A program made the position numbers and the translations under genes. 64,000 nt of DNA from Spirogloea muscicola. Its lineage: Eukaryota > Streptophyta > Zygnematophyceae > Spirogloeales > Spirogloeaceae. The stretch covers positions 755,634 through 819,633 of the forward strand of contig WELB01000003.1 in assembly GCA_009602725.1 (NCBI GenBank). The letters are read 5' to 3'. The stretch's first letter is position 1; each line of letters starts with the position of its first letter. A model generated the notes under the pieces. That model saw nothing but the letters and a program-made list of their open reading frames with translations, had not been told where the DNA came from and ran no database searches. Below, in pieces: positions 1,240-64,000 of this stretch.

Positions 1240-14155
<12,916 letters not shown>

Positions 14156-25494: not shown

Positions 25495-26440
25495 AACAAA
25501 CGAAGGCCAAATGGCCAAGTACAAAGGCAAGCACATCTTAAGACCTACATAACCTACAGTAGATTGACCCGCTCAGAAACCACGGGTCAAAACATAAAGG
25601 TCGCTAACCGATGCCTGGATACTAGATGGCAGATACGAAGCCCTTCTGCTACCAACTAGAGCTCGCCCAGCTTTCTGGTGCAAAGCATTAGCCTGAGCAC
25701 GCTGCAAACAGGCCGAAACACGTCGTCGCAACAACGACAGATAAGCAGCTGGCAAGCCCATCTCAGCCGGGAACACATCTGCATGTCGTGTGTAGCCTAG
25801 AATGGCTATGTTTTGAAGGAGAGTAAGGAAACGAGGACCTAAGCAGCCAAAGATGTCGATTGCTGCTGGCAAGAGCTGATCACATCGGGGATAATCGGAG
25901 TAGTGATGCAACTTTCTTTGTTCAGCACTGCCCACTGCGTGGCCAGCGATGTGTGTCGATGCTGGACCTTTATAGGCCTCCGTAACCACAATATCGACCA
26001 AAGCCCTTGGTCCTCCACCAGGTTGCACGCCCACAATGTCAAGTGTGCGGCGATGATGACGTCCCTGGGCATCCGTGGTGATAGGCATGATGTTGTTCAC
26101 TTCCACGACCGCACGGTACCCGGCGTCGCGCATCAAAGCCGCCAGAGCATCACGGAGGACGTTGTGGATGCCCAACACTTCTGGTCCAGTGGGGCATCGC
26201 AGCATGTGAGTGGCGAGCTCAGCACTCTCTGCGCGGAAGCTGCACTCACACTGGCGCACCCCAATCAGGCAGTTAGGTGGGAGGCCGAGGACGAGTTGAA
26301 GCGACGTCCGAAAGGCCTCGGAGCTGATGCTGAAGGTGCTGGCCACGGCGTGTGAGGTGATCCAGTCTGTGGCTCGAGGTGTGGCGAGGGAAGTAAGTCT
26401 TGCCGGGCTCCTTGGATTGTTGTGAATCTCTGGCAGCCTC
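25495..26440 (-). mobile_element. RLE retroelement subfamily A, 5'-truncated copy with type II tail
   Basis: The open frame 26440-25573 encodes the C-terminal module of the element. A CCHC-like knuckle (VRQCECSF...THMLRCP) is followed by a restriction-like endonuclease core with HRRTLDIVGVQPGGGPRALV and DIVVT, the spacing expected for a PD-(D/E)xK fold. A helical region and the terminal SDLYVLTRGF-stop come next. The 3' tail (25572-25495) carries CTTGGCCATTTGGCC. No RT domain remains. This is the longest uninterrupted RLE module in the window and shows what the broken copies encoded. Confidence 0.82.
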
Positions 26441-26519
26441 CGCAAGCTTCTGCGGCGCTCATCTTCCACTGCCGTAACCAGTCTGAATTGTGCCCCTCTA
26501 TCCGAAGCTTGGGCATGGG

Positions 26520-31794: not shown

Positions 31795-32500
31795 GTATAA
31801 TGAGAGATGGAGGGCCTGTGTGGCCAAGTACAAAGGCAAGCACATAGACAAATGTGCATCACCTGCTGCTAAGCTGACCCGCTCAGTAACCACGAGTCAG
31901 CACATAGAGGTCGCTAAGTGATGCCCGAATACCGGACAGCAGTCGACAAACTCTTGTGCTACCAGCTGAGGCTCGACGAGCTTTCTGATGCAACGCATGA
32001 GCTTGTGCTCGCTGCAGACAAGCTGACACTCGACGTCGCAAGAATGACAAGTAGGCTGCCGGCATGCCCATCTGAGCTGGAAGCATATCCTCACGTCGAG
32101 CATATCCCAGACTTGCAATAGTAGGGTATGGAAGCGAGGACCCATACAGCCGAAAGTGTCAATCGCGGCTGGTAGGAGGTGTCACTGCGGGGGTAGTCAG
32201 AGTAGTGTAGGAGCTTTCTCTGCTCTGCACCTCCCACTGCGTGGCCAGCAATGTGAGTTGATGCGGAACGCTTGTACGCCTCCGTCACAACCACGTCCAC
32301 CAAGGCTCGTGGGCCTCCGCCAGGTTGTACACCCACAATGTCCAGGGTGCGACGGTGATGGCGTCCCTGAGCATCCGTGGTGATGGGCATTATATTGCTC
32401 ACTTCCACAATGGCGCGGTAGCCGGCGTCGCGCATGAGGTCCGCCAGGGCGTCCCATAGGAGATTGTGAACGCCCACCAACAAAAGGGTGAAGGTCTCCA
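31795..32500 (-). mobile_element. retroelement subfamily A copy with broken RLE module
   Basis: The RLE core (GRHHRRTLDIVGVQPGGGPR, ALVDVVVTEAYK) and the end SDLYVLTRGY-stop are both present, but a frameshift near 32140 separates them. The type II tail occupies 31882-31795. It closely resembles the 25.5 kb copy. Confidence 0.78.
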
Positions 32501-34799: not shown

Positions 34800-35040
34800 C
34801 TTTGTCAATTGATTTTTGGGCTGGCTTTTCGCAGCCCTTGCCCCATTTGGGAGTGCCACTTCTCTCTACACAGACCTGATGTTGCTCACTCGGGGGTACT
34901 GACTTCCCTCTGCATGGCCTGTGTTTTGCAGTGTTTTTGTAGTGTAGTCCTCTTTCCGGCTCCTCTTTCTTCTGCTTTGGACATTGTCCATTCTTTTTTG
35001 GGCTGGCTTTGCCAGCCCCTCTTCTCTATGGGCGCGCACT
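34800..35040 (+). mobile_element. type I tail, then subfamily D 3' end
   Basis: A tail with a hairpin at 34818-34837 is followed by an extremely short C-terminus (TDLMLLTRGY-stop, stop about 34899). Its tail matches the long element at 36.5 kb, including the perfect hairpin at 35000-35018. Confidence 0.75.
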
Positions 35041-35310
35041 TCCCTCTTCTCTAGGGGCGAGCACTTCTTTTGCTGTGCTCTCGCTGCGGCCTCCGGCTTT
35101 CGTCAGGGGGATAGTTTACCGGCAGCTAGTCTGTCGGATGTGAGGCTCCTCACTCGTAACTACTAAGTGGTCCATCCTCCCCCGTTCTGCCATAGCCTCT
35201 TCAGGCCCCGCAGTCGCTGCTTAGCTCGTAGTTTGGCCCCTTCGAACCTTGTCAATTCTTTTCGGGCTGGCTTCTCACAGCCCTTGCCCCCATTGGGAGA
35301 GCCACTTCTC
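35041..35310 (+). mobile_element. retroelement subfamily C 3' end
   Basis: Reads ALAAASGFRQGDSLPAASLS, DVRLLTRNY-stop (35163-35165). The tail GTGGTCCATCCTCCCCC... follows, with hairpin GGGCTGGCTTCTCACAGCCC at 35263-35282. The same end occurs at 36.2-36.4, 41.7-42.0 (reverse) and 42.9-43.1 kb. Confidence 0.8.
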
Positions 35311-35552
35311 TCTTTTGCTGGGGGTGGTCCCGCCAGCTTTATCGCAACTCTAGTATTCCGAGTTGTCTTGCCAAGTGGTGACGGCTCCTGAACACCTGTG
35401 ATTGGCCAGTCAAAAATGGCCTCTGCCGCCCCGGTGGCGGTGGCGGGCCGCCTCCGCCACCGGTTCCAAGGAAAATCCCGTTTCCGGTTTCCGCTTTCCA
35501 CCAGTCAATTTGGAAGCGCTGTTCTCTTTTCCGAAGTAGTAAGCCCTCTGTA

Positions 35553-35610
35553 GATGTGCTTGCCTTTGTACTTGACCATTTGGCCATCGTTCGTCTCAAA
35601 TACACGTACT
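35553..35610 (+). mobile_element. orphan type II tail
   Basis: TGTGCTTGCCTTTGTACTTG followed by ACCATTTGGCC and TCGTCTCAAATACACG. No ORF is attached. Confidence 0.6.
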
Positions 35611-35776
35611 ATTCCATCCCGCCTCCCGCAGTTGGCGGGCCAGTAAAGAGAAAAAAGCCAGTCCGCTTTTGCACACGCTTTTGCCTGAACATTGTACTAG
35701 CTCACATTGGCCTCCTGTCAGTCCTTGCAGTGGGAGGTGCCGGGCTTTAATTGAAGGGCTCGCCCATTGATTATAG

Positions 35777-36375
35777 GGGCTGGAAAAAGCCAGCCCAAGA
35801 AAGAATGAACAAAGGACGAGAAGGGGCCAGGGGAAGTACGAAGAACATCAAGCACAAAATAAGAAACGAAGCAGCTACGAAGCACTCAGTAACCCCTGCT
35901 AAACACTGGCTCGACATGTTGGCCAGGCTTGCACGGCGCGCTTGTGTCCCGCAGGCGCGGTGAGCTGGCTGACTTCAACGCCGCTGGCTCGTGGGCTCAG
36001 GTTTATCGTATGCGCTTGTCCGTCTCCCTCCAGCAGTCCATGGCCCACGCCTTGCATCTGTGTGCTGGCCGTGCTCTCGCTGCTACTCAGATTTGCATCT
36101 ACTGACGAGAGGTTACTGAGAGTTCGCTTACTGCTGTCTCAGTCCTTAGCACTCCGACTCCTTCAGACCTTGTCCATTCTTTTGGGCTGGCCTCTCCCAG
36201 CTACCAGTTAATGTGGCCGCGCTTGCTCTCTCGCTGCGGCCTCCGGCTTTTGTCAGGGGGATAGTTTTCCGGCAGCTAGTCTGTCGGATGTGAGGCTCCT
36301 TACTCGTAACTACTGAGTGGTCCATCCTCCCCCGTTCTGCCATAGCCTCTTCAGGCCCCGCAGTCGCTGCTGCTC
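35777..36375 (+). mobile_element. retroelement subfamily G end, then subfamily C end
   Basis: A reversed type I hairpin (35777-35796) is followed on the plus strand by FNAAGSWAQVYRMRLSVSLQ and AGRALAATQ, then SDLHLLTRGY-stop (about 36119), with hairpin at 36184-36202. A subfamily C C-terminus (DVRLLTRNY-stop near 36321) and the start of its tail follow. Confidence 0.72.
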
Positions 36376-36610
36376 AACGAAGTACGCGCCCATAGAGAAG
36401 AGGGGTGCTAAACAGCCTCAGGTCAAAGAGACTGGGTTCCTGTAAGCGGGTCCCCTGGCCAGTGCCAGAAGAAGTGCGCGCCCATAGGGAAGAGGGGCTG
36501 GCAAAGCCAGCCCAAAAAAGAATGGACAATGTCCAACGCCAAAGAAAGAGGAGCCGGAAAAAGGACTACACTACAAAACACTGCAGAACACAGAGACGAT
36601 GCAGGGAAGG

Positions 36611-37495
36611 TCAGTACCCACGAGTGAGCAACATCAGGTCTGAGTAGCTCGCTGCAGGGAAAGAGGCACTCCGCCGAAACCCAGAGGCGGCGGCCATAGC
36701 ACGGCCTGCTCGCGTGTGGACGGCGTGGGCAAGGGAGCGTTGAAGTGATATGGCCATGCGCATGCGGAAGACTTGTGCGAGCGAACCGGCGGCGTTGAAG
36801 CCGGGCGTCGCCCCTGGCAGACCTGGCCGCCGGCCAATGGCCTGGCGGGCAAGCCGCTGAAGGAGATCCAGCCAGCGGCTGCCGAAAGCCCCGTGTACAT
36901 CCATCGCCAGGGCCGCGAATTCATCCCCACCGGGTGATCAGCATATTTTCGCTCCTTGCCCCGGGCCGCCTGGCCGACCGCGTGCCCTGCAAACGACGCC
37001 GATCTGGTGGGATCGGCGGAGTCGATGCAGTCAGTTGTCACGACATCAGCGATGATGCGGGGACCGCCGCCGGGCGGGATGGCGACCAGGTCGGCACGTC
37101 GTGTACGGGGCTGGCCGTCCGCGCCCAGCTGGATGGGCATTATGGAGGAATTCTCCACCGCGACCTTAAAGCCAGCCTCCGAAAGCACCCCCTGCATACC
37201 ATCTCCCAGGAGGTCGTGGGAAGCGGTCCGCTCGCCCCCGTGTGCGCAACGGAGCATACGGGCGGCCAGCTCCGCAGGATCAACGCGACGGGCACCGCAC
37301 TCGCATTAAGTGACGCCCGAGGCAGGGAGGGAGGAGGCCCAAGAGCCGGTGGACCGCCGTCCTGAAGTCCTCGTCGGGCATAGTGAGCGCAGCGTGGAGT
37401 GGGAGCACTGATAGCCACGCCGCCGCCCCAGGGGAGGAGGCTGAGAGCAGCCGTGCGCGCCCTCGAAGGTCAGCCGGAGGGAGAAGCTCCACCAC
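36611..37495 (-). pseudogene. frameshifted knuckle and RLE domain of the subfamily D element
   Basis: Three successive frames are needed. 37495-37280 has DEDFRTAVHRLLGLLPPC and the Cys-x-Cys part (RVRCPSR). 37257 downward has MLRCAHGG, RTRRADLVAIPPGGGPRI and IADVVTTD, the endonuclease core. From 36904 the frame is FGSRWLDLLQRL...AGRAMAAASGFRRSASFPAA, SYSDLMLLTRGY-stop. The breaks make this copy non-autonomous. Confidence 0.8.
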
Positions 37496-39483
37496 CTGGT
37501 CGGAGGCCGCTTTTCAACCAGCGCCGAGAAGCGTGCCTGGGCACGCTGGTCAGGGGTGTGGGCGAGGTGGATGAAAGGAACGACCTGCTCCGAGATGTGG
37601 GGGTGGACCGCCAGGAGCCCGTCGTGGGCAAAGCGGAGGGCAACCTGAAAAGGCCGCTGACCGATCTCCACCTCAGCTGCCGCCCGCTCCAGGGCGCGCT
37701 GGCCGTGGAGGAGGAACCTCTGGCACATGGGGGCTGCCACCTGAGCCCAGCTACCCATGTAGGCCGCCTCGCAGGCGCGGGCAACTGAGCGGCATCCCAA
37801 GCCGCCACGACTGGTCGGCAGGCTAGCCTGCAGCAGCGCAGCTGGTGAGGTGAGGAACGCAGGGTGCTGCACGAGGGTGGCCGCGGACGCCAGGATGCCG
37901 GAGTCAAAGGCCGCATACGCTGCCTTCACCGCCGACGAGGGGGGGATGGTGCGGGCCAGATAGTGTGGCCGCTGCGCAATGCACCGTGTCAGCATCGCAG
38001 TCGCCAGCTGCATGTCCTGCAGCGTGTGAAGACGGTCCGCTGGCCGGAGGTGTTCCTGCAGCCGCGCCTGCAGCTGCTCCATCACGAAGGCAGGTGCGCC
38101 TAGGGGGACGCCGAGCAGGGTGAGGCCCCCGGCTGGTGTCTGGCAACCCTCGGGCAGGCGCAGGTGGGCTGGCAGGCCCTGAGGGGACCAGGCGTTACAT
38201 TTGTCCGCCCGACTGTCCGGGCCGATCGCGTTCAGCTGCACTTGAAGGGTGTCAAAGGCAGCTGCGACATCCTCTGGCTTCCCCACCAGCGTGGTGTCAT
38301 CAGCGTATGTCGGCACGAGGACGCCGGGGTGAACCGCGACCGTTGCCTGGAGCGCACGGTGATGTGCCAGCGCATAGTAGAACCCCGCCAGTGGATCCCC
38401 TTGTGGCGCGCCCCTGGTGGAGTGGAGGGTCTCCAACGCATCACCCCCCGCCCGCCACTGCAGCTCGCATGGCTGACCGTACCCCAGCCTGAAGAAGGGT
38501 AGAAGGCTGGGAAAGGCCTCTCTCAGCTCCTCCGCGATGACACCACGATCAACGCTGTTGAAGGCGTTGCGGACATCGACTGCCATGGCCACCCATCCGG
38601 GATGCAGGTCCAGGGCGGCCCATACGCCGTGCACGACCGTCTCACCGCCGCTCCGCAGCCCGGCACCAAACTGTTGGGGCGCCAGGTGTGCCTGGGCCTG
38701 CCCTGGGTGCTGTTGCCAAAGCGCGCGCCCCACCAGGCGGTAGAGCACCTCACCGATGGCGATGGGCCTGACCCCCCCACCAGCCTTGCTGAGCGCCAGC
38801 AGTGTACTGGTGTACAGGACGCCGCGATCGCTGGCCGGGACCCAATGGCGAGCGAGGAGCTGGCACACCTGGTGGAGCGCCTGGAAGTAGGCCGGGTCGC
38901 CCTCCAGGAAGATCTCCCGGAGATGCTCGGTGAGCATGTGGGAAGGACCTCCCCGCGGCCGTGCAACGGCTGCTCTGCAGGGCCCTCCGCAAGGCGTCGG
39001 CTTCGAGGACCACCTCCTCCGGCGGTGCGAAGGTGGCCAGCCACGGGGGCAGGGGGTGGGAGCCGCAGGGTGCAGGGACTCCAGGGCCGCCCTTGTGGCA
39101 GTATTGGTGGGCGCCAGCACCGCGTCGTCCAGGGCCTGGACCGCCCTTGACAACTCGCCCGCGTGACCGAAACACAGAGCCCGGCGAACATTGGCGGCCC
39201 TGTCTGGTGCGGCCCGCGCATCACCTCGGTTCGCCGCCGAGGCCGCCACCGCTGCGTCATGGCGTGCGAGAAGCTCCTCCCAATGGCCGCTCTCAAACAA
39301 TCGGACGCGCTCCAGAAGGGGCTGCTGGTCCTGCCAGCGGCCGTCGTGGGGGGCACGGCCGAGCAGTAGCCTGGGGAAGAAGAGAAACTGCTTCCAAGCC
39401 GCCTCGTCCCGGTGGTCCCTGGCAATCCGCTGCATCGCCGGGCGGAGCGCGCGGCGAATGTGCGGGTGCACCCCGCGGGGCAC
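37306..39483 (-). CDS. reverse transcriptase ORF of the subfamily D element
   Basis: 725 residues from the first possible start; the frame stays open upstream to about 39870 and includes a second finger, CQHCQTTFTTQSGRANHERA. RT motifs in order: GVRPIAIGEVLYRLVGRAL, motif A VDVRNAFNSVDR, motif B GAPQGDPLAGFYYAL, motif C TYADDTTLVG with the catalytic YADD, then LLGVPLG. The catalytic Asp residues are intact. A C-terminal thumb-like region follows until the frame breaks near 37.4 kb, before the endonuclease. Target-primed reverse transcription is the expected mechanism for the family. Confidence 0.88.
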   Translation of the reverse strand: MPRGVHPHIRRALRPAMQRIARDHRDEAAWKQFLFFPRLLLGRAPHDGRWQDQQPLLERVRLFESGHWEELLARHDAAVAASAANRGDARAAPDRAANVRRALCFGHAGELSRAVQALDDAVLAPTNTATRAALESLHPAAPTPCPRGWPPSHRRRRWSSKPTPCGGPCRAAVARPRGGPSHMLTEHLREIFLEGDPAYFQALHQVCQLLARHWVPASDRGVLYTSTLLALSKAGGGVRPIAIGEVLYRLVGRALWQQHPGQAQAHLAPQQFGAGLRSGGETVVHGVWAALDLHPGWVAMAVDVRNAFNSVDRGVIAEELREAFPSLLPFFRLGYGQPCELQWRAGGDALETLHSTRGAPQGDPLAGFYYALAHHRALQATVAVHPGVLVPTYADDTTLVGKPEDVAAAFDTLQVQLNAIGPDSRADKCNAWSPQGLPAHLRLPEGCQTPAGGLTLLGVPLGAPAFVMEQLQARLQEHLRPADRLHTLQDMQLATAMLTRCIAQRPHYLARTIPPSSAVKAAYAAFDSGILASAATLVQHPAFLTSPAALLQASLPTSRGGLGCRSVARACEAAYMGSWAQVAAPMCQRFLLHGQRALERAAAEVEIGQRPFQVALRFAHDGLLAVHPHISEQVVPFIHLAHTPDQRAQARFSALVEKRPPTRWWSFSLRLTFEGAHGCSQPPPLGRRRGYQCSHSTLRSLCPTRTSGRRSTGSWASSLPASGVT

Positions 39484-39860
39484 ATGGCGGAGGAGCGGGA
39501 GGGCCGCCTGGCGGTGGATGGCAGCGAGGTCGAGGCCGGCCAGCCACTGCCGGTGTTGAGGCGTGGGAGGGGTTGGCGCGGAGCGGACAGGCCTGCCTGG
39601 TCTGCCCCGGCGGCCTCCCGCAGCCGCTACGCTCCGCGCCTGTGCCGCACGGTTGTTGTTGAGCGCGCAGGCGCGCTCGTGGTTGGCCCGACCTGACTGC
39701 GTGGTGAAGGTCGTCTGGCAGTGCTGGCACAGCAGGGGGTCGGGCGAGCGAGGTGGGGGCGAGGGCGGTGGAGCTGGTGCGCACGGTGGAGGCGGAGGCG
39801 GCGGTGGCGAGGGCCGGCGAGGGCCGGCATCGAGGGCGGCAACGGCGGGGGGCAGGGCGG

Positions 39861-40930
39861 CTAGAGAGGCGGGATGGTGGGTGGCTGGGAAGGCAGAAGC
39901 GCAGACCGGGGAAGCGGCGGCGAGGTCGAGGCAGGTGGCTGGCTCAGCGGAGGTGGACGCTGGGGTGGCGGTGGTGGCGACGGCGGCGACGGTGGTGACG
40001 GCAGCAGATGCGGCAGCGACGGCGGTGGGGACGGCGGCCCTGCTGCCACGGGAGGTGCACTCACGGGGATATCAGGGGCAGCATCACGCCCAGGGGACAA
40101 GGCACCCTGCGGAGAGACTGGGTTAACCTCGGGGGGCCCTTCACATCTCGAAAGCTGAGTCGATAAAGCAGGTGCCCGTTGCTTCTCACGGGCGGGAGGC
40201 GATACATGCTCCTCCATGGTCTGCTCCTGAGGTGAGGCTGCCAGGACCGTGGCGATGGGGCCGCAAGCCGCGACGGCCGCATCGGCTGGCTGGCACGGCG
40301 AAGGTGGACTCTGTGGCGGCGGTGGCGGTGACGGCGGCGGCGGAGATGGCGGCGGAGGCGGCGGCGACGGCGGTGGCGGCGGCGACGACGGTGGTGACGG
40401 CGGCCCTGGGGCGGGAGGCGAGATATGCTCCTCCGGGATGTGTTCCTGAAGTGCGGCTGCCAAGACAGTGGCGTTGGGGGTGCAGGCTGCGGCGGCCGCG
40501 TCGGGCGTCGAGCCAGCGGGGCTGGGATACCCCTTGCAGTGTTTCCGGTGCGAGGAAACACCGCTGGGAGTAGCAAAATCCCGCGGACAAGTGGGCACGG
40601 CACGCGCGGGGATGCCACAGGAGGGGAGGACGGCAGCGGGAGAGATGGGGGGGGCGCAGGTGGGGGCGATGGTGCGGGGAGGGGGAAAGGCGGAGGGGGC
40701 GGCGGCGGAGGTGGCGTGGTGGCGGCATGGAAAGCGGAGAAGGCGAGGAACCGCTGCGCCCAAGCGAACTTGGCCGGGGGAAGTTCGGGGCTCCGGCTCC
40801 GAAGGCGGCGCCGAGAACGCGCGGGTGGGGCGACGGCAGGCGGCGCGGCAGCGGCGGGAGTGACGGTGGCCACGGGAGCCGGCGCGGGGGCTGAGTAGGG
40901 AGGGGGCTTGCACGCCGCCGCGGACCCCAT
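39861..40930 (-). pseudogene. retroelement N-terminal region with a C2H2-like finger
   Basis: Translation from ATG 40930 is Pro-rich, then the reading frame shifts near 40.63 kb into the frame containing TCPRDFATPSGVSSHRKHC, a C2H2-like finger, and stops at 39861. A second frame change is needed to join the RT frame. Long CCG/CCA runs make indels likely, biological or technical. Confidence 0.6.
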
Positions 40931-40969
40931 GGCGGGCGCCGCCGGCGAAGGCGCCGGCGGCGGCCCGGG

Positions 40970-41050
40970 GTGTAAAGCGGCTGCTGATATTAAAAGAGCG
41001 GCTGTGAAAGCCAGCCAGATGCATACAGGTGTTCATGACGGAGCCAAAAG
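40970..41050 (-). mobile_element. subfamily E tail immediately upstream of the D element
   Basis: GGCTCCGTCATGAACACCTG...GGCTGGCTTTCACAGCC...AGCAGCCGC, almost identical to the tail at 41265-41330. It lies directly against the head of the D element, in the same orientation. Confidence 0.75.
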
Positions 41051-41261
41051 GTGTAGGAGGGGTGAGGCCACTCGGACCCGGGCGGCGTCAGAGTGCCGGT
41101 TGAAAGCAAGCGCGGCCAGACTCACTGGTTGCTGGGAGAGGCCTGCCCAAAAGAATGGACAAGGACAAGTCGGTTACAATCAGCAGACGTGATGGGCCAA
41201 CGCTTAGGGCGCGGGCCCAAGCCCACTCCCCCCCCATGCGGCCCGCCCCCTAGCTCAAGCG

Positions 41262-41560
41262 GCTGCTGATATTAAAAGAGCGGCTGTGAAAGCCAGCCAG
41301 ATGCATACAGGTGTTCATGACGGAGCCACAGGCTAGACAGCCAGGGCGCTCTTAGTAACCCCGTGTCAGCAGTAGGAAGTCAGATGAGCTGAGGGGAGGA
41401 AGAGCAACCCCGCTGCGCAAGCCAGAGGCTGCTGCAAGGGCACGACCCTAGGATGAAAGAGAGAGCGCGCCCATAGGATGAAAGGGCTCGCCCATTGTAA
41501 TAGGAAGGGCTCGCCCATTAAGGATAGGGGCATGAAAAGCCAGCCCAAAAGAGGAAGAAG
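41262..41560 (-). mobile_element. retroelement subfamily E 3' end
   Basis: Minus-strand RALAAASGLRSGVALPPLSS, SDFLLLTRGY-stop (stop about 41356), then a short spacer and the GGCTCCGTCATGAACACCTG tail to 41262. Degenerate type I tail sequence (about 41520-41560) lies upstream of it. Confidence 0.75.
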
Positions 41561-41734
41561 GAACAAAGTACGAGAAGGGGGCCAGGGAAGCGCTAAGGAA
41601 AACAAGCACAACAAGAAACAAAGCAGCTACGAAATACTCAGTACCCCCTGCTAAGCAGCCTCCGGTCAGAGAAGCTAGGCTCCTGGAAGTTGGTCCCCTG
41701 GCTAGAGCTAGAGACAGCTGCTGAAAGAAACAAG

Positions 41735-42045
41735 AAGAAGTGGCTCTCCCAATGGGGGCAAGGGCTGTGAGAAGCCAGCCCGAAAAGAATTGACAAGGTT
41801 CGAAGGGGCCAAACTACGAGCTAAGCAGCGACTGCGGGGCCTGAAGAGGCTATAGCAGAACGGGGGAGGATGGACCACTTAGTAGTTACGAGTGAGGAGC
41901 CTCACATCCGACAGACTAGCTGCCGGTAAACTATCCCCCTGACGAAAGCCGGAGGCCGCAGCGAGAGCACGGCCAGCACGCAAAGAAACAGCTCTAATTA
42001 ATGTCGGGCAATGGCTGTGCGAGGCCAGCCCACAAAGATTCAGCG
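41735..42045 (-). mobile_element. retroelement subfamily C 3' end, reverse copy
   Basis: RALAAASGFRQGDSLPAASL, SDVRLLTRNY-stop (stop 41879-41881), then the tail with its hairpin at 41762-41781. It is joined at its truncated 5' side to another type I tail near 42000-42045. Confidence 0.78.
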
Positions 42046-42129
42046 GACTCCTTGGATTCCAGGAGCGCGACACGCTCGGCGGAGGAGGCGGGCTACGCCG
42101 TCCGCCAAGCGGCCGCCGCAAAGGAGCGC

Positions 42130-42745
42130 AAGTACTCAGATTACCTCTGCTTGAATTGTGTATTGGCTTGAATTGGCCTCCCTTTTCATTTCATGCGCCC
42201 CGCGCGCCTTTCCCGATCACCCGGTAGGCGACGAGTTTATATTACTCGCCGTCGACGTACACGGCGCCATTTGGCGCCAAATGGCTGGACCTCCTTCACC
42301 ACCTTGCACGGCGAGCAGCGGCCCGCCGCGATGGGCAGCAGGGCGAGCAGCCTGGCTTCCATGTCGCCGGGTCCCTCGCCCAAGTTTACCGGATGCGCCT
42401 GGCCTCTCTTTGCAGCGGTCCCTAGCTTTTGCTAGGGTTGCTAGGATAGCCAGCTCATTACCCAGTTAACAATTCATTTGTAAGGCTTGAATTGGCCTCC
42501 CTTTCAATTTCATGCGCACCGCGCGCCTTCTCTCTTGCGGTCCACTTGCGCGCAGGCCGCGCTCTGGCGGCGGCCTCCGGCTTCCGTCAGGGCGACGTCT
42601 TTCCGCCTGCAAGCTACTCAGATTTGCATCTACTGACGAGAGGTTACTAAGAGTTCGCTTACTGCTGTCTCAGTCCTTAGCACTCCGACTCCTTCAGACC
42701 TTGCCCATCCTTTTGGGCTGGCCTCTCCCAGCCACCAGTCAATCT
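42130..42745 (+). mobile_element. truncated retroelement copies with type III and type I tails
   Basis: A type III block at 42170-42220 precedes a fragment with DHPVGDEF and VDVHGAIW-like segments (to about 42440). A second type III tail lies at 42440-42535. A subfamily G end follows (ALAAASGFRQGDVFPPASY, SDLHLLTRGY-stop near 42650) with its hairpin at 42715-42733. Confidence 0.7.
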
Positions 42746-42859
42746 GGCCGCGCTTGATTCAGGGTTGCGGGCTTAGGGGTCAAATTTCAGGGCTGAGGTT
42801 TGAAAGGGCCGGAAGGCGCCAAAAGCACAAAGCTACTCTCCATGACTTCTGCGGGTGGG

Positions 42860-43080
42860 CGTTTTACAGGGGGATAGTTTTCCGGCAGCTAGGCTGTCGG
42901 ATGTGAGGCTCCTCACTCGTAACTACTGAGTGGTCCATCCTCCCCCTTTCTGCCATGGCCTCTTCAGGCCCCACAGTCGCTGCTTAGCTCGTAGTTTGGC
43001 CCCTTCGAACCTTGTCAATTCTTTTTCGGGCTGGCTTCTCACAGCCCTTGCCCCCATTGGGAGAGCCACTTCTTCTTTAC
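42860..43080 (+). mobile_element. retroelement subfamily C 3' end
   Basis: SDVRLLTRNY-stop (about 42926), then the tail with GGGCTGGCTTCTCACAGCCC at 43028-43047. Almost no coding sequence remains. Confidence 0.78.
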
Positions 43081-50884: not shown

Positions 50885-51640
50885 GAGGCGCCTTTCGGCT
50901 CTTGGGACCTTGTCCATTCTTTTTGGGCTGGCCTTTCCCAGCTTTGGCTTTCGCCAGGAGGATTTGCTCTCCGGTAGCTAGTCTTTCGGATCTGCGGCTC
51001 CTCGCTCGTGGGAATTGAGTGGTTCATCCTCCCCGCTCTTAGATAGCGCTTCTGACCCCTTCGAACCTTGTCATCTTTTTTCGGGCTGGCTTTTCCGCTG
51101 GCCATGCTGCGGCGAACACCGCTTGCTGCAAGGCGGCAAAACATGCAGACCACCCGGCTGAGGACGGGTTTGTACCCGTGGCCTTGGATGTGCTCGGGGC
51201 TCTCGAGTCCCAATGGCTCGACCTGCTGGCCAGGCTTGCCCGGCGCGCTGTGTCCCGCAGGCGAGGTGAGCAGGCTGACTTCAATGCCGCTGGCTCGTTG
51301 GCCCAGGTCTACTGCATGCGCCTGTCCATCTCCCTTCAGCCGTCCATGGCCCACGCCTTGCACCTGCTTGCTGGCCGTGCTCTCGCTGTAGCCTCTGGCT
51401 TTCGTGAGGGGGATTGTTTTGCGGCAGCTAGTCTGTCGGAACTGACAGATCCTTACTCTTAGTTACTGAGTGGTTCATCCTACCCCAGTTGTTGCGATAG
51501 CACTTCTGGCCCCTTCATGGTTTTGGCCCCTCCGAACCTCGTCCATAATTTTCGGGCTGGCTTCTCACAGCCCTTGCGCCCACTTACCCCAGTTCTGAGA
51601 AAGCGCTTTCAGCCCCTGCGTACTTTGGCCCCTTCGAAGC
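50885..51640 (+). mobile_element. retroelement 3' ends, type I
   Basis: A type I tail near 50925 precedes a C-terminus, SLSDLRLLARGN-stop (about 51020). A longer fragment follows at 51085-51460 (KHADHPAEDGFVPVALDVLG, FNAAGSLAQVYCMRLSISLQ, GRALAVASGFREGDCFAAAS, LSEL) with a damaged last signature. Its tail has a hairpin at 51554-51573. Confidence 0.75.
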
Positions 51641-63540: not shown

Positions 63541-64000
63541 CGCCCTCTAGGTATTCGGACTTGCACTTACTGATTAGAGGTTACTGAAAGCCTACTTGCT
63601 GACGACTTAGAGATTGGTATCTTGCTCTTGGCGCCACTCGGCCCTTGCAGACCTTGTCCATTCCTTTGGGCTGGCCTCTCACAGCCACTGCTGTCAATTG
63701 GAAGCGCTGTTTCAGATCTGTGTGTGTGAGGTCGGAAACTGTGAGAGGTCCATGGCCCGTGCGCTGCACCTTCGTGCCGGGAGAGCCCTCGCTGCTGCCT
63801 CTGGCTCTGTCCAGGGGACCCACTTCCAGGACCCTAGCCTCTCTGATATGCGGCTGCTTAGCAGGGGTTACTGAGTAATTTGTAGCTGCTTTCTTTCTTT
63901 GTGTGCTTTGGTTTCTTAGCGCTTCCTCTGGCTTCCTCTGGCCCCCTTATCGTTCTTTGTTCATTCTTTTTTGGGCTGGCTTGTCCAGCCCCTATCCTCA
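63541..64000 (+). mobile_element. retroelement subfamily G end, then subfamily F end
   Basis: YSDLHLLIRGY-stop (63549-63584) with a type I hairpin starting at 63668. A second C-terminus follows (ARALHLRAGRALAAASGSVQ, SLSDMRLLSRGY-stop at 63872) with the perfect hairpin GGGCTGG-CTTGT-CCAGCCC at 63973-63991. Confidence 0.82.

Follow-up and report, generated by a model that had tools for sequence, protein, structure and literature searches.

Among described systems, R2 and other retrotransposons with a restriction-like endonuclease (RLE) are the closest to the elements studied here. The 3' untranslated region (UTR) of R2Bm is given as 248 nt long, with the RNA bound by NTE-1, ahead of the reverse transcriptase (RT), and a core of ~40 nt resolved on the protein (PMC10499050). 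Long interspersed nuclear elements (LINEs) of the RLE type are described as marked by two acidic residues, a KX2KY motif and a zinc knuckle of the form CX2-3CX7-8HX4C (PMC5678591). Here, we analyze elements of this kind in the genome of Spirogloea muscicola (153 Mb, 471 contigs), centered on 64 kb of contig WELB01000003.1 (contig positions 755634-819633, hereafter the window) in which many fragments of non-long terminal repeat (non-LTR) retroelements were found. Families A, A2, B, C, and D are diverged RLE-type non-LTR elements whose protein ends in SDLxLLxRGY and a stop codon, or in near variants, followed by a tail of ~75 nt (T1) made up of a CCTTGTCCATTCTTTT-like block, a GGGCTGG..CAGCCC hairpin, ~30 nt, and a ..CTTCTTC terminus. 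It is highly probable that these are the 3' ends of RLE non-LTR retrotransposons, that T1 is their true terminus and is bound by the element protein, and that the C-terminal peptide is a part of the RLE and not the reader of the tail.

A 3' tail common to diverged families

A motif search of the window returned 20 matches (1.37 expected), some of which are not clean copies. The hairpin, counted about 20 times in the window in the initial annotation, is one part of the ~75-nt conserved tail. To avoid circularity, the upstream block and not the hairpin was used as the query for the tail survey. On its own, the block is found at 27 places in the window, followed by an exact GGGCTGG at 19, by a copy with one mismatch at three and by none at five (listing read by eye). 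Within a first sample of 322,573 bases, window included, there were 300 block matches versus 13 for the reversed patterns; the peptide motif and a stop lay within 400 nt upstream in 121 of the 300 (23 on the reverse complement, 6 in shuffled sequence), and an uninterrupted stem of at least 6 pairs was present in 208 of the 296 with enough 3' sequence (70%; shuffled, ~28%). The distance from the peptide motif to the start of the hairpin pattern is wider than the 65 to 115 nt after the stop first proposed, ranging from 35 to 148 nt and mostly from 59 to 131 nt.

At the scale of the genome, a strict pattern consisting of the hairpin plus an 8-nt prefix (ATTCTTTT-N0-2-GGGCTGG-N3-9-CAGCC) has 4,729 + 4,817 = 9,546 copies, and its reversed control has none. 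The bare pattern GGGCTGG-N8-CAGCCC has 141 + 110 versus 0 + 3 for the control, self-complementary places being scored on both strands. Through this bare pattern we retrieved 86 loci of 3 kb, which make the above sample richer in tails, although only one place per locus is responsible for the retrieval. Most of these hairpins do not behave as an independent repeat, since 65 of the 86 places carry the block (57) and/or a match to the tail hidden Markov model (HMM; 59), the block test alone having a background of 7.8%. An Rfam scan of the window at gathering scores gave no match.

Protein class and domains

The assignment to RLE retroelements made in the initial annotation holds, as does the sharing of a 3' tail among diverged families. 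In the window, a family A element on the minus strand has an open frame of 921 aa (37309-40071) with an N-terminal zinc-finger-like CX2CX12HX3C, recognized by eye, and an RT matching Pfam RVT_1 (6.1e-11), with YADD in the translation. Past one stop, the RT frame continues into the zinc knuckle and RLE part (36904-37305, -; translation), and a frameshift leads to the C-terminal lobe (36614-36904, -; motif search and translation), which ends in SYSDLMLLTRGY (DLMLLTRGY) with its stop at 36611-36613. The hairpin follows at 36495-36513 (-) as GGGCTGGC-TTT-GCCAGCCC, an 8-bp stem with a 3-nt loop, with the block TTGGACATTGTCCATTCTTTTTT directly 5' of it and the 3' end of the element near 36471.

Behind the RT, the aligned families show the RLE marks D208, D223, and K253-X2-K256-Y257, with G at position 223 in 1 of 11 rows, KX2KH in family B, and KX2HY in family E. 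The knuckle departs from the described spacing, being CX1CX11-12HX3C in the aligned families (L087-L102 and window 25576-26469); in that of L099 both Cys are retained, though the E that separates them is missing. In a fold model of low confidence, helices and strands of the RLE region follow one another as expected, the core blocks having a predicted local distance difference test (pLDDT) score of 51 to 79. The apurinic/apyrimidinic endonuclease (APE) is the enzyme of the stringent-type LINEs ZfL2-1, ZfL2-2, and UnaL2, which are not known to carry an RLE, and RandI carries both, with the APE N-terminal. No Pfam match to APE was found in 39861-41036 (-, 391 aa) or in 37309-40071 (-, 921 aa), the frames of the window copy being broken. 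No relatives were found in collections of phages, viral contigs, and genome contigs, none of which is a eukaryote collection. Judged by its sequence marks, the lineage is of a known kind, RLE-type non-LTR retrotransposons, with a putative zinc knuckle of unusual spacing.

3' end of the elements and mode of insertion

An RT search yielded the 3' parts of 17 elements, their N-termini lying outside the stretches read. In nine of the 17 (L087-L090, L093, L094, L096, L098, and L099), all with a stop-free RT match, an uninterrupted frame runs to the C-terminus and is followed by the tail; the other eight are interrupted or frameshifted, or show no block match over the part read (L091 and L100). Each T1 family has copies with long open frames that lead via RT, knuckle, RLE, and C-terminus to T1.

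We compared end points in 20 short 3' stretches, 15 from family D and 5 from family A. At ten of the 15 family D places, the tail is shared as far as ..GAGCACTTTCTTC, give or take a few bases, and the sequences diverge from there on, the divergence point being also seen as ..CTTTCTTC; in family A, where it is seen as ..CCTTC, four of the five places end in ..GAGCCTTC(TTC). These common divergence points put the hairpin ~30 nt inside the element terminus. Among the other family D places, L117 ends early, L104, L111, and L112 carry a different copy or family, and a tail is missing at L114. Insertion into 28S rRNA genes is a mark of the R2 clade; among the copies that have a common end here (10 of family D and 4 of family A), the downstream flanks differ by eye and show no single target.

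The C-terminal lobe was found in 60 of the 86 loci, the knuckle and RLE part in 23, and the RT in 4, as expected from 5' truncation, the loci being centered on the tail and, at 3 kb, also biased to the 3' part. Most copies are fragments from the 3' region of the element, and many look truncated to 45 to 120 nt, which is short for LINE insertions. Among the 207 copies with both flanks available for comparison, flank repeats of at least 8 nt were found in 33, versus 4.85 in shuffled pairs, and of at least 7 nt in 56, versus 12.35. Common end points together with short target duplications indicate that T1 is the true end of the element. The marks of target-primed insertion (5' truncation, a defined 3' end, and target duplications) are all present, and, T1 being the true end, its likeliest role would be recognition of the tail in target-primed reverse transcription. 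CTT or TCT occurs in the first 6 nt of 25 of the 33 flank repeats (background, 0.11 per random 6-mer), a comparison biased by the four element-end letters inside the compared window; for the repeats with a 5' copy entirely inside the flank, the count is 11 of 15. This is suggestive of a target preference for pyrimidine tracts.

Two copies, L117 (family D) and L120 (family A), are otherwise like young copies and end inside the stretch behind the hairpin, before the usual terminus. That stretch (~22 to 25 nt, ATGGGCGAGC..CTTC) is also tandemly repeated behind some tails (window 41460-41530, -, and 35019-35070, +), which could be due to template slippage or to nested tail ends.

One peptide, several tails

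Eleven C-terminal regions align at 60 to 91% to the first one. In the 20 of 58 copies with a body identity below 50%, the last ten residues have a mean identity of 0.78, versus 0.37 for the body, and are higher in 20 of 20, in a comparison that kept only alignments reaching residue 97 and thus favors a conserved end. The last ten codons (ten representatives, of which one contains an internal stop) have a proportion of synonymous differences (pS) of 0.72 and of nonsynonymous differences (pN) of 0.24, and serine is written both as TCN and as AGC, which points to constraint on the protein rather than on the RNA.

When distant copies were read past the stop, they proved to have different tails, which we call T2, T3, and T4. 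In a later sample of 354,822 bases, the peptide was found no more than 180 nt away from 94 of 334 T1 tails (reverse complement, 6). T2 (TTTGTACTTGGCCA..GGCC) had SDLYVLTRGY-type ends 47 to 52 nt upstream in 23 of 43 tails (reverse complement, 0). Six of the 14 T3 tails (GCATCTGGCTGGC..CAGCCG) had a peptide match, five of them at 49 to 50 nt (reverse complement, 2), in a sample where at least 2 of the 14 tails look like chance matches. For T4 (GAATTGGCCTCCCTTTCAATTCATGCG), three of six tails matched, two being SDLFVLTRGY at 91 nt (reverse complement, 0). Exact counts in the genome were 1,127 + 1,148 = 2,275 for T2, 624 + 690 = 1,314 for T3, and 402 + 430 = 832 for T4, with controls at 0. T2, found on family E (SDLYVLTRGY ends), has a GGCCA..TGGCC hairpin and ends in AATACACG, and T4, on family G (SDLFVLTRGY; L030, 2158-2560), has the inverted repeat GAATTG..CAATTC and then ATGCGCCCCGCGCGCC; both are without the T1 hairpin core. 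T3 is carried by family F (SDFLLLTRGY) and found also at L003 (637) and L058 (436); its hairpin core is GGCTGGC..CAGCC, with other flanks (ATATCAGCAGCCGCTTT follows).

The type of tail tracks the tree of the C-terminal lobe, in which the T1 families (59 to 81% body identity) are separated from F (T3), G (T4), and E (T2) with a split support of 1.000, in a tree that covers the 97-aa lobe only and has one copy each of F and G. Family E has 25 to 36% body identity to all the other families; it looks partly young, and two groups with many identical scores were seen among its 132 scored matches. The group as a whole is large and partly young. Since the peptide also ends families with tails T2, T3, and T4, the idea of one hairpin for one peptide is not supported.

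We propose that the protein would bind the RNA of the T1 tail together with its hairpin, and that target-primed reverse transcription would start at the CTTCTTC end of T1, perhaps aided by annealing to pyrimidine-rich targets. By their place and their spread, the last ten residues (SDLxLLTRGY) would belong to the RLE part, with a job common to all the families; because families E, G, and F have the same peptide with other tails, these residues are probably not tail readers. By analogy with R2, the specificity for the tail would more likely lie before or inside the RT, and the tails are most likely exchangeable recognition codes read elsewhere in the protein. A bolder proposal, which we put forward only tentatively, is that several RNA-tail codes (T1/T3, T2, and T4) might operate in one genome, the tails being swapped and the peptide staying fixed, essential to the RLE and independent of the tail, in a lineage with its own knuckle spacing.

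Alternative explanations

A rather unlikely alternative is that the stem letters act as a linear sequence, for example as a protein-binding or processing signal, with the hairpin unformed or irrelevant. The covariation check proposed in the initial annotation would agree with it: among 180 tails (of 215 spanning, near-duplicates removed; 77 columns; G-test with a tree-based permutation null from 150 null alignments), no pair covaried beyond chance (best pair, E = 0.36; eight stem pairs, E = 687 to 1,780). However, the power of this test is low since the stem hardly varies, with 4 to 21 substitutions per stem column (4 to 13 in the five core pairs); the columns with the fewest substitutions include those of both arms and of the TTGT in the block. 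Single changes at pairs 2 to 6 were pair-keeping in 23 cases and pair-breaking in 56, many copies being decayed (transitions alone, 23 and 17), and double changes over the 180 tails and six pairs amounted to one pair-keeping (L040) and one pair-breaking. A set of 42 tails had zero double changes and an RNAalifold covariation term of 0, and 89.2% of its cells were paired versus 89.6% in shuffles; sliding the partner by 1 to 3 columns reduced pairing to 24.6 to 63.1%, a drop expected for any structure taken from the consensus. RNAalifold found no structure at all on 120 and 180 rows, and on 20 and 60 rows it found the stem plus a weak second stem (CCC..GGG) that by eye is not common to all the families. 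With RIBOSUM scoring, 100 rows yielded another, larger structure, which was not relied on. Against a purely linear signal, the two arms are conserved and remain able to pair for 5 to 6 bp despite the variable length of the loop, the stem grows inward to 8 bp in family A and 7 bp in family D, and short inverted repeats are found in the other tails too (GGCCA..TGGCC and GAATTG..CAATTC). The proposed pairing thus rests on the complementarity of two conserved arms and on the inward extension in A and D, and not on covariation.

The dedicated pair put forward in the initial annotation, in which the C-terminal peptide itself reads the GGGCTGG hairpin, appears improbable. Both partners are conserved across families A to D, and the T3 family F retains the hairpin core GGCTGG..CAGCC together with the peptide, but families E (T2) and G (T4) hold the peptide with other tails. 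In published reports, moreover, the 3' UTR of R2Bm is bound by NTE-1 (PMC10499050) and the stem-loop of two zebrafish LINEs by the region between endonuclease and RT (PMC4176376). Least credible is a tail that travels alone as an independent repeat or short interspersed nuclear element (SINE) and stands beside RLE genes by chance. It would account for the 176 of 319 tails whose upstream sequence is unlike the seven element 3' regions; however, no cluster with shared upstream sequence among the 176 exceeds four members, the clusters inspected by eye being further LINE 3' parts or nested copies. The tail also terminates copies with long frames and young copies, and very short copies fit 5' truncation. 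No SINE was found among the 319 sampled tails.

Several results weigh against the preferred reading, that of RLE elements ending in a T1 tail bound by the protein, with a peptide that is not the reader. Besides the lack of covariation, the excess of pair-breaking single changes, and the bias of the last-ten comparison, the last ten residues of family B are 60% identical versus 68 to 70% for the body, and the excess within T1 is small. T3 keeps the T1 hairpin core, and peptide and hairpin therefore co-occur outside the T1 clade. Among the 86 bare-hairpin places, 21 have neither the block nor a tail-HMM match; by eye, some are coding sequence (L002, L053, L063, and L058) and others perhaps decayed tails. 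On the protein side, Pfam does not recognize the RLE part, PDB sequence searches match neither the RT nor the RLE part, and the fold model has a mean pLDDT of only 50.9 (below 50 at residues 304-365, and ~29 to 43 over the last 65 residues, which makes it uninformative on the peptide). Compared with PDB structures, the model gave no match at E <= 0.001 (best, 0.46), leaving the fold unconfirmed.

Other copies in the window

All five C-terminal variants listed in the initial annotation are present in the window, two of them outside the piece at 34800-43080: DMRLLSRGY (family D, 63854-63874, +; hairpin at 63973-63991) and DLRLLARGN (50998). The DLRLLARGN copy has a broken hairpin (GGGCTGG..GCTGGCC near 51082), and a further DVRLLTRNY, at 36296 (+), sits on a fragment without its own tail. 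The stem and loop variants are as first described, with 8 bp and 3 nt at 35000 and 36495 and 6 bp and 8 nt at 35264 and 43028. On the plus strand, a family B-type tail hairpin without its own coding end (34818-34837; 6 bp, 8-nt loop) precedes a 5'-truncated A-type copy (DLMLLTRGY and stop, 34882-34902; family A hairpin, 35000-35018) and a family B copy at ~35071-35309 between TCTTTTGCTG repeats (DVRLLTRNY and stop, 35146-35166; hairpin GGGCTG-GCTTCTCA-CAGCCC, 35264-35283). A family D hairpin, GGGCTGG-CTTTTT-CCAGCCC, lies at 35777-35796 (-), and a family C end, DLHLLTRGY and stop, at 36099-36119 (+), its hairpin (36184-36203, +) having lost the outermost pair.

Further along, there are a family B hairpin at 41762-41781 (-) with DVRLLTRNY at 41879-41899 (-), a family C end (DLHLLTRGY and stop, 42630-42650, +; hairpin, 42715-42734), and another family B end (DVRLLTRNY and stop, 42909-42929, +; hairpin, 43028-43047). 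Family E is represented by a zinc knuckle, RLE, and C-terminal lobe at 25576-26469 (-) that ends in SDLYVLTRGF and is followed by T2 (25505-25525) in place of the GGGCTGG hairpin, and by a C-terminal lobe at 31886-32119 (-) that ends in SDLYVLTRGY, with T2 at 31813-31834. Close to the family A element, on its upstream side, there is a T3 hairpin (GGCTGGC..CAGCC; 40999-41022, -), with a second copy at 41281-41304. The window also contains a CHD-like gene with chromodomain and SNF2 helicase matches (8270-10127, -), in open frames amid repeats.

Comparison with known systems

We found no description of the T1 tail or of the peptide among the titles and abstract openings listed for open-licence papers, and novelty is not claimed. 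A conserved peptide adjoining a conserved hairpin need not be the partner of that hairpin. If the proposed reading is true, a genome in which related RLE proteins carry different tails would offer natural material for mapping the residues that read each tail, a question of interest for R2-based gene insertion tools.

The RandI/Dualen elements of the green alga Chlamydomonas share their LINE tails with SINEX, with ends made of short repeats, (ATT)n or, in SINEX-2_CR, (CTTT)n (PMC3747384); in contrast, there is no APE match here in the frames tested and no SINE in the sample. The stringent-type LINEs ZfL2-1 and ZfL2-2 of zebrafish and UnaL2 also have a short 3' stem-loop tail, and each LINE recognizes its own stem-loop, but the tail of the zebrafish elements binds between the endonuclease and RT domains (PMC4176376). 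With R2 and the RLE LINEs, the elements described here have in common the order zinc finger, RT, linker, CCHC-type knuckle, and RLE, the KX2KY motif, and insertion from the 3' end (PMC10499050, PMC5678591). They differ in the knuckle, CX1CX11-12HX3C instead of CX2-3CX7-8HX4C (PMC5678591), in that their copies are dispersed and nested in the sampled loci, and in the length of the conserved tail, which is well below the 248 nt of the R2Bm 3' UTR, although only a core of ~40 nt of that UTR is resolved on the protein.

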